A stretch of 64,000 nucleotides of DNA from Microbacteriaceae bacterium (lineage in GTDB: Bacteria > Actinomycetota > Actinomycetes > Actinomycetales > Microbacteriaceae): positions 1 to 64,000 of the forward strand of contig JAHBSP010000004.1 in assembly GCA_019639055.1 (NCBI GenBank). Reading direction: 5' to 3'. Positions 41,440-42,924 of the stretch are shown here, in pieces. Within the stretch, counting starts at the first letter, position 1, and the number at the start of each line of letters is the position of its first letter. Under the pieces are notes generated by a model. That model ran no database searches. It was not told the DNA's origin and saw only the letters and a list, made by a program, of their open reading frames with translations. The translations under genes were made by a program, and so were the position numbers.

Positions 41440-41581
41440 GGCGCATTCGCTTTCTGTTGAGGTGATCTTGAATCCCGCTCCGATTACGCATTTTGCTTCT
41501 AAACCCGGGCTAAACCAGTTTGTTTAGGGCCGAATGCGAGCTTGGAGGGCTCAGGGATGCTCGGTTGAGCACCAAGGGTAT

Positions 41582-41610
41582 ACTTTACGTGATTTGTGCT
41601 GGCTTTTCAA
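41582..41610 (-). promoter_or_regulatory. Candidate promoter of the rplM operon
   Basis: On the minus strand TTGAAA (41605-41610), 17 bases, then TAAAGT (41582-41587). Transcription would start near 41575, just outside the 89-bp repeat, with a leader of about 135 bases before rplM. Confidence 0.5.
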
Positions 41611-41623
41611 CCTGTTCTGAGCA

Positions 41624-41712
41624 CTCCCTATCCTTTATTTTGGTACTCCCTACCTTTTTTGAAGCGAGCCTACCTTTAACAGGGGTAGGCACATCCCAAT
41701 AAAGGTAGGGAG
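41624..41712 (+). repeat. 89-bp element, copy 1 (left of truA)
   Basis: This element reappears in opposite orientation at 42770-42857 with only three differences: two substitutions and one missing T. Its ends are inverted repeats, CTCCCTA[C/T]CCTTTATT facing AATAAAGGTAGGGAG, and an inner hairpin GCCTACC with GGTAGGC lies around 41668-41690. The motif CTACC/GGTAG occurs five times. It looks like a miniature inverted-repeat element or a REP-type site. No target duplication is visible. Confidence 0.85.
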
Positions 41713-41847
41713 TAGGGATGCGCAAAACGACAAACAACGAAACCAGAGTGGCACCATTAGCAAAGACTAAGCGTTGGCAATCATCCAGCTGCCTCCCTTA
41801 GCCCCTTACTTACATATTGATACTGACGCCGCTTTGGCGAAGATTCA

Positions 41848-42708
41848 TCACAGCTCCCGAATTCCTCGCGTTTGCTCTGCACGACTGGCCAGCTCATTAT
41901 CAGCAGGGTATTCCACCGCAAGGAGGGTGAGTCCGTGAGCTGGGGCGACTTTGATTTCTGGACTGCGCTCTGCAGCATCCAACAGTTCAGTAAGCCTTGC
42001 CAGATTGAGTCGTCCCTTTGCAACCTCCACCAGCGCACCAACCAGGTTACGCACCATGGAATGGCAAAAGGCGTCTGCTTTCAAATGAGCGATAACCGTT
42101 TTGTCCGCCCCACGCCTCCAATGAAACTCTTGCAGATTTCGGATGCTCGTGCTTCCTTCTCGCGGTTTGCAGAATGCCCCAAAATCACGCAGCCCGAGTA
42201 GCACCTCACTGGCCTGATTAAGGATGCTCAGATCAAGGACGCTTTCAACACGCCAGTGATCGAGGCGGCTCAGTGGATTGTAGGGAGCTTCGGCATCACT
42301 AATCTTGTATTCGTATGTGCGCGAGAGTGCCGAAAATCTGGCATCAAAGCCGGGTGGTGCATCCTGAATCTTGTGAGCAGCCACATCGAAATCACGTGAA
42401 AGAGCTTTTGATAGTTTGCGATTTAGTTCCGCGGCAAAGCTATTTTCTGTCCTGGCAAAGCCCTTTGCCACGATAGCTTCAGGAATATCCAGATGTGCAA
42501 CCTGGCCGAGCGCATGAACGCCGGCATCTGTCCGCCCCGCCACAGTTAACCGCGGAAAGTAATCGACCCCGTCTGCGCGAGGAAGAACCAGTATTAGTGC
42601 ATCTTCAAGCACCCCTTGAACGGTACGTAATTCGGGCTGGGTCGCCCACCCGTTGAAATTGGTGCCGTCGTATGCGATATCCAGTCGGTAGCGTGTTTGC
42701 CCATCCAC
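41848..42708 (-). CDS. truA: tRNA pseudouridine(38-40) synthase
   Basis: Forms pseudouridine in the anticodon arm. The 286 residues start at a GTG and carry YDGTNFNGWATQPELRTVQG. The catalytic aspartate is Asp61 in GRTDAGVHA, and MVRNLVGALVEV is present. It lies between two oppositely oriented copies of an 88/89-bp element, separating it from rplQ and from rplM, which it usually joins in actinobacteria. It therefore probably has its own promoter. Confidence 0.95.
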   Translation of the reverse strand: MDGQTRYRLDIAYDGTNFNGWATQPELRTVQGVLEDALILVLPRADGVDYFPRLTVAGRTDAGVHALGQVAHLDIPEAIVAKGFARTENSFAAELNRKLSKALSRDFDVAAHKIQDAPPGFDARFSALSRTYEYKISDAEAPYNPLSRLDHWRVESVLDLSILNQASEVLLGLRDFGAFCKPREGSTSIRNLQEFHWRRGADKTVIAHLKADAFCHSMVRNLVGALVEVAKGRLNLARLTELLDAAERSPEIKVAPAHGLTLLAVEYPADNELASRAEQTRGIREL

Positions 42709-42769
42709 ATAATTGAGTTTACTGGTGCATTATTACAGGTTCGCTTGTTTTGGACTACGCTCAGCACTG

Positions 42770-42857
42770 CTCCCTACCTTTATTGGGATGTGCCTACCCC
42801 TGTTAAAGGTAGGCTCGCTTCAAAAAAGGTAGGGAGCACCAAAATAAAGGGTAGGGA
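42770..42857 (-). repeat. 88-bp element, copy 2 (right of truA)
   Basis: Inverted copy of the element at 41624-41712. Read on the minus strand, it differs from copy 1 at position 8 (C for T), at one T missing from a TTTT run, and at one G for A near position 21. Copy 2 lies between the rplQ terminator and truA. The near identity of non-coding sequence suggests recent duplication or gene conversion. Confidence 0.85.
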
Positions 42858-42873
42858 GTCGCTACTAAAACCA

Positions 42874-42906
42874 AAAGTGCCCCAAAGTTCATAACTTTGG
42901 AGCACC
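42874..42906 (-). terminator. Terminator of the alpha operon (after rplQ)
   Basis: On the minus strand a hairpin with GTGC plus CCAAAGTT arms (one internal mismatch) around a short loop is followed by TTTTGGTTTTAG. It lies about 20 bases after the rplQ stop. Confidence 0.8.
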
Positions 42907-42924
42907 TTGAAATGTTTTAGAGTA

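Follow-up and report, generated by a model that had tools for sequence, protein, structure and literature searches.

Palindromic repeats of short length, dispersed over a genome and placed at gene ends, are a familiar kind of sequence. MITEs are short, non-coding, geneless units with inverted terminal repeats that are dispersed through intergenic DNA (PMC10969869). The GTAG REPs and REPINs with RAYT are palindromic repeats of gene 3' ends, often placed between convergent genes and carrying GGTAG units, with the REP itself being a GTAG-tagged hairpin of 20-40 bp present in high copy (PMC3733652, PMC3116915). For REPs lying between convergent genes, the distance to the upstream ORF's 3' end has been reported to be under 20 bp in most cases (PMC3733652). 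RUP and BOX from Streptococcus pneumoniae, as well as ERIC, are intergenic repeats of about 100 bp restricted to single lineages (see also PMC10969869). A repeat bearing likenesses to all of these has been detected in a Microbacteriaceae genome of 1,415,698 bases (17 contigs, 99% complete), where two copies enclose truA. Positions below refer to the window, the whole stretch of 64,000 nucleotides that was analysed, and the features around truA are as follows.

41623..41712, + strand: copy 1 of the element, 90 bp, in the truA-rplM gap
41623..41637, + strand: box 1 of copy 1, outer and direct, ACTCCCTATCCTTTA; 12 of 15 columns invariant over ten copies
41646..41712, no strand assigned: imperfect palindrome core of copy 1 (67 bp, boxes 2-5), same sequence as the copy 2 core
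41848..42708, - strand: truA, enclosed by copies 1 and 2 (ORF and tblastn, Microbacteriaceae loci, best identity 57%)
42770..42859, - strand: copy 2 of the element, 90 bp, in the rplQ-truA gap
42770..42836, no strand assigned: imperfect palindrome core of copy 2 (67 bp)
42845..42859, - strand: box 1 of copy 2, outer and direct, ACTCCCTACCCTTTA, from the ten-copy alignment
42874..42908, - strand: terminator-like hairpin of rplQ, transcriptionally upstream of copy 2

The two truA copies are inverted with respect to each other and align without gaps, differing only at columns 9 and 23, where each has a substitution; the 67-bp palindromic core shows no difference at all, and the similarity is far from chance (BLAST E = 5.7e-39). 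The near-identical inverted elements described around truA in the first-pass annotation are real. Their inverted-repeat ends are as it described, and an internal CCTACC/GGTAGG pair is present. It had given lengths of 88 and 89 bp with two substitutions and a single-base gap; the substitutions stand, while the true length is 90 bp each and the gap arose because the coordinates were a base or two short. A promoter-like site lies directly beyond copy 1 on the rplM side (41610-41582; chance alone predicts one site of this kind over the stretch), and the copies therefore happen to bracket truA.

A sequence profile built from ten copies recovers exactly ten in the host genome, with 71-98% identity, a gapless alignment and one common polarity. 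Copy counting had been proposed in the first-pass annotation as the check on its repeat, the contrary outcome being an element that occurs only at truA, and with ten copies the family extends well past this locus. The same profile finds no copy in 399 other genomes of the Microbacteriaceae, the family to which the host is assigned by its truA matches, and 30 relatives have nothing of the kind at their truA loci. A tolerant exact pattern, which recovers nine of the ten known copies, gave zero matches both in the contigs of 84,980 species and in viral contigs, collections that may omit the host's own or near-identical records. A plasmid search returned nothing, a phage search a single 38-base match at chance level, and an Rfam search zero matches. 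The sequence family is undescribed in the databases and literature searched.

Several candidates were rejected. Pattern matches in two related viral contigs (L114 1631-1695 and L115 832-896) are closely similar phage stretches, each a 65-bp segment CTCCCTACC...GGTAGGGAG with an interior unrelated to the element. Matches to CTCCCTAC in relatives fall inside a conserved coding stretch, and two half-site matches (C14:125029 and C15:7174) lie outside any element context, the latter in a coding ORF and the former apparently so. An arm extension of 122 nt past the 90 bp is weak and was excluded from the element.

With the ten copies oriented by the extra outer box (box 1) for alignment, each unit displays five CCTACC-type boxes 20-22 bp apart, three in one orientation and two in the opposite one (CCTACC at columns 5, 27 and 47, GGTAGG at 62 and 82, of columns 1-90). 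The dyad falls at column 57, the box steps are 22, 20 and 20 bp, and box 1 stands 22 bp outside the first box of the palindrome. The inverted termini are near-perfect over 9-10 bp (ACTCCCTACC / GGTAGGGAG) in the ten copies, one of which carries a single substitution, and the flanks share no general similarity, leaving sharp borders. Core mismatches in other copy pairs range from 1 to 17 of 67, against zero in the truA pair, whose near-identity may have come about through gene conversion. In the C5/C11 pair, 1 of 67 core positions is mismatched against 6 of 23 in the head, a mosaic pattern that suggests exchange between copies.

This layout sets the element apart from the described families to different degrees. 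A REP is a hairpin of 20-40 bp, whereas the element measures 67-90 bp, has five spaced boxes with no hairpin of their own after them, and is present in ten copies; a RAYT (Y1_Tnp) gene is absent from the host genome. Such a gene can be missing from REP hosts through loss. To our knowledge, a five-box layout is not a feature of RUP, BOX or ERIC, their layout having been compared by description. The ends of Tn7 and Mu carry several direct boxes about 20-22 bp apart in unequal number per end; box spacing and uneven ends are alike here, a resemblance only, as the element does not have TG...CA termini and the genome has no rve match. Integron attC, CIRCE and KOPS were also considered as possible likenesses; GGGTAGGG, present in some terminal boxes, fits the KOPS consensus, but the boxes point in both directions.

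The ten copies all lie between genes, in DNA for which a crude ORF model puts the coding share of the window at about 94%, and they adjoin unrelated genes in both orientations. Eight of them begin 5-18 bp past a stop codon or tRNA end, in agreement with the reported placement of REPs at gene 3' ends (PMC3733652). Five lie between convergent genes, none between divergent genes, and one is close to a contig end.

Convergent genes: aldo-keto reductase/PMT
Convergent genes: tRNA-Phe/NmrA
Convergent genes: glyoxalase/ABC2
Convergent genes: ABC transporter/GNAT
Convergent genes: DCC1/DUF559-like
Co-directional genes: rplQ-truA
Co-directional genes: truA-rplM
Co-directional genes: atpI-like-atpB
Co-directional genes: AFG1 ATPase-tRNA-Gly

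Such positions would suit a role at the RNA level of the sort proposed for REPs, either as a bidirectional transcription terminator or as a 3' mRNA-stabilising hairpin, and the truA copies have a predicted fold of -40 to -43 kcal/mol (z -4.3 to -5.5) on either strand. Nevertheless, this explanation is improbable. Compensatory change occurs at one pair only, the covariation term is -0.06, and conserved box 1 is unpaired. A left arm resembles the right arm of its own copy less (0.72) than it does the right arms of other copies (0.76), with 99.9% of arm-similarity permutations equal to or better than the observed value. The GC-rich hairpin followed by a T run that marks an intrinsic terminator is not seen, there being no T run after the element hairpin, and the terminator scan makes no call on the element; since rplQ moreover has its own, separate terminator-like hairpin, a terminator role is unlikely. 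The suggestion in the first-pass annotation of a transcription boundary specific to truA has likewise not been borne out, because eight copies stand at unrelated genes and the rplQ hairpin precedes copy 2.

Conservation tracks the boxes and not the base pairs, and it is therefore likely that DNA-protein contacts are under selection; the five-box array suggests a DNA site for a protein. One explanation is that the array is bound by a host protein, such as a nucleoid, segregation or transcription-insulating factor. With five boxes at two-turn spacing, an oligomer would be loaded at ten places along the chromosome, situated at gene ends, and the sites would have been multiplied by duplication and kept for function. 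The protein-binding array anticipated by the first-pass annotation gains partial support here, because the conserved boxes are parted by spacers variable in sequence and constant in length (columns 16-22, which change freely, and 72-75). Box 1, although outside the palindrome, is among the best-conserved parts of a family diverged down to 71%, and the copies stand beside unrelated genes in either orientation. However, the array is confined to a single species, no candidate protein has emerged, element-sized excess DNA suggests recent arrival, and ends bound by a transposase would look alike, leaving a host factor as the main, though less likely, alternative. Rather more speculative is the proposal that the ten arrays could be loading sites of an undescribed oligomeric DNA-binding protein peculiar to this lineage and concerned with chromosome organisation or gene-end insulation, the arrays being spread by a mechanism that targets the 3' ends of genes.

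Gap lengths at truA may reflect insertion. In a comparison with other genera, the rplQ-truA gap measures 217 bp in this genome and 85-121 bp across the six closest relatives retaining the gene order, an excess of about one element. The truA-rplM gap is 409 bp, against 153-206 bp in the nearest relatives where readable, so that the excess is one element plus about 110-165 bp; even with the element subtracted, this gap (41440-41847) exceeds that of relatives by over 100 bp. The atpI-atpB gap is 281 bp here and varies among relatives: most of those in which the upstream match is clear have 143-190 bp, but at least one has a similar length by hand estimate. At C5, a DUF559/AbiEi-like ORF enters the element, its last 20 or so codons lying past the homologue-matched region.

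The inverted, almost identical truA copies also raise recombination between them, by which inversion of truA would be possible. That they are sites for inverting the segment, of the phase-variation type, is very hard to credit, given that the other eight copies are solitary and that truA, a housekeeping gene, stands where it usually does in Microbacteriaceae and faces the usual way.

The best explanation, and on balance a probable one, is a lineage-specific, non-autonomous, MITE-like mobile repeat, a reading favoured because the element is found only in one genome, is always intergenic and usually lies just past a gene end. The miniature mobile element raised in the first-pass annotation is accordingly the best fit to ten sharp-bordered, lineage-restricted, intergenic copies and to the element-sized excess at truA, with a low copy number (ten) counting against it. 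Transposition and an enzyme acting in trans are what we infer, unlike the family, borders, box array, restriction, placement and excess length, which were read directly, because neither a target-site duplication, nor a full-length parent, nor a match to four transposase families was found. Flank matches extend over at most 0-3 bases in the ten copies, as in mismatched copy pairs; a full-size parent with these ends is judged absent because the terminal box has no further copy in an element-like context; and family-by-family searches of the 99%-complete genome gave no match to Y1_Tnp, rve, DDE_Tnp_1 or Transposase_mut. The element resembles MITEs as a short non-coding unit with terminal inverted repeats and in its multiple dispersed copies with sharp borders, and differs in having, as searched, no target-site duplication and no parent or transposase with the same ends. 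Of five MITE features, two are thus present and two lacking as tested; for the fifth, empty sites in close relatives, the gaps compared are shorter by about one element (rplQ-truA, other genera) or of varying length (atpI-atpB). The element is accordingly named MITE-like rather than MITE.

Under this mobile-repeat explanation, the element ends would be arrays of transposase boxes, one end having three and the opposite end two. Once bound to these boxes, a transposase supplied in trans would bring the ends together and place a copy at a new site, with copies surviving only where they are harmless, between convergent genes and downstream of gene ends. That the truA pair is nearly identical would then reflect recent local copying, or gene conversion between inverted copies, and the trans-acting enzyme would by now be lost, or not recognised.

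A separate oligonucleotide bias was observed in the same DNA. The octamer GGATGCGC is the commonest 8-mer in 129 kb sampled, with 41 occurrences on both strands against 6.6 expected from an order-3 Markov model (sixfold), mostly within genes. It is enriched at the truA loci of the nearest relatives (17 against 2.8) and not in Aquiluna/Rhodoluna (2 against 3.7), and could possibly be a Chi-, KOPS- or uptake-type signal. Its sites in the window are as follows.

GGATGCGC: 882, 13763, 14499, 14768, 19116, 25450, 26053
GGATGCGC, remaining sites: 32069, 32269, 41716, 47675, 50678, 56049, 57735

Over the whole genome, AGGGATGCGC has 32 occurrences and the reversed control 0, and the presence of AGGGATGCGC in the flank of two copies was rejected as part of the element, since it belongs to this genome-wide bias. 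As a post hoc observation, GGATGCRC begins within 7 bases of the right end in three of the ten copies, in the same orientation (window 41716; L049 4195 and 4211; L052 4078), well in excess of its background of about 2 per 10 kb on each strand.

In so small and gene-dense a genome, 1.4 Mb with no match to four common transposase families, one would not expect short mobile repeats. If the element has moved recently, the enzyme would have come from the cell or from a visiting element; if it is instead a protein-binding array, it would mark an unknown chromosomal factor. Apart from that, the element is an ordinary kind of repeat family.
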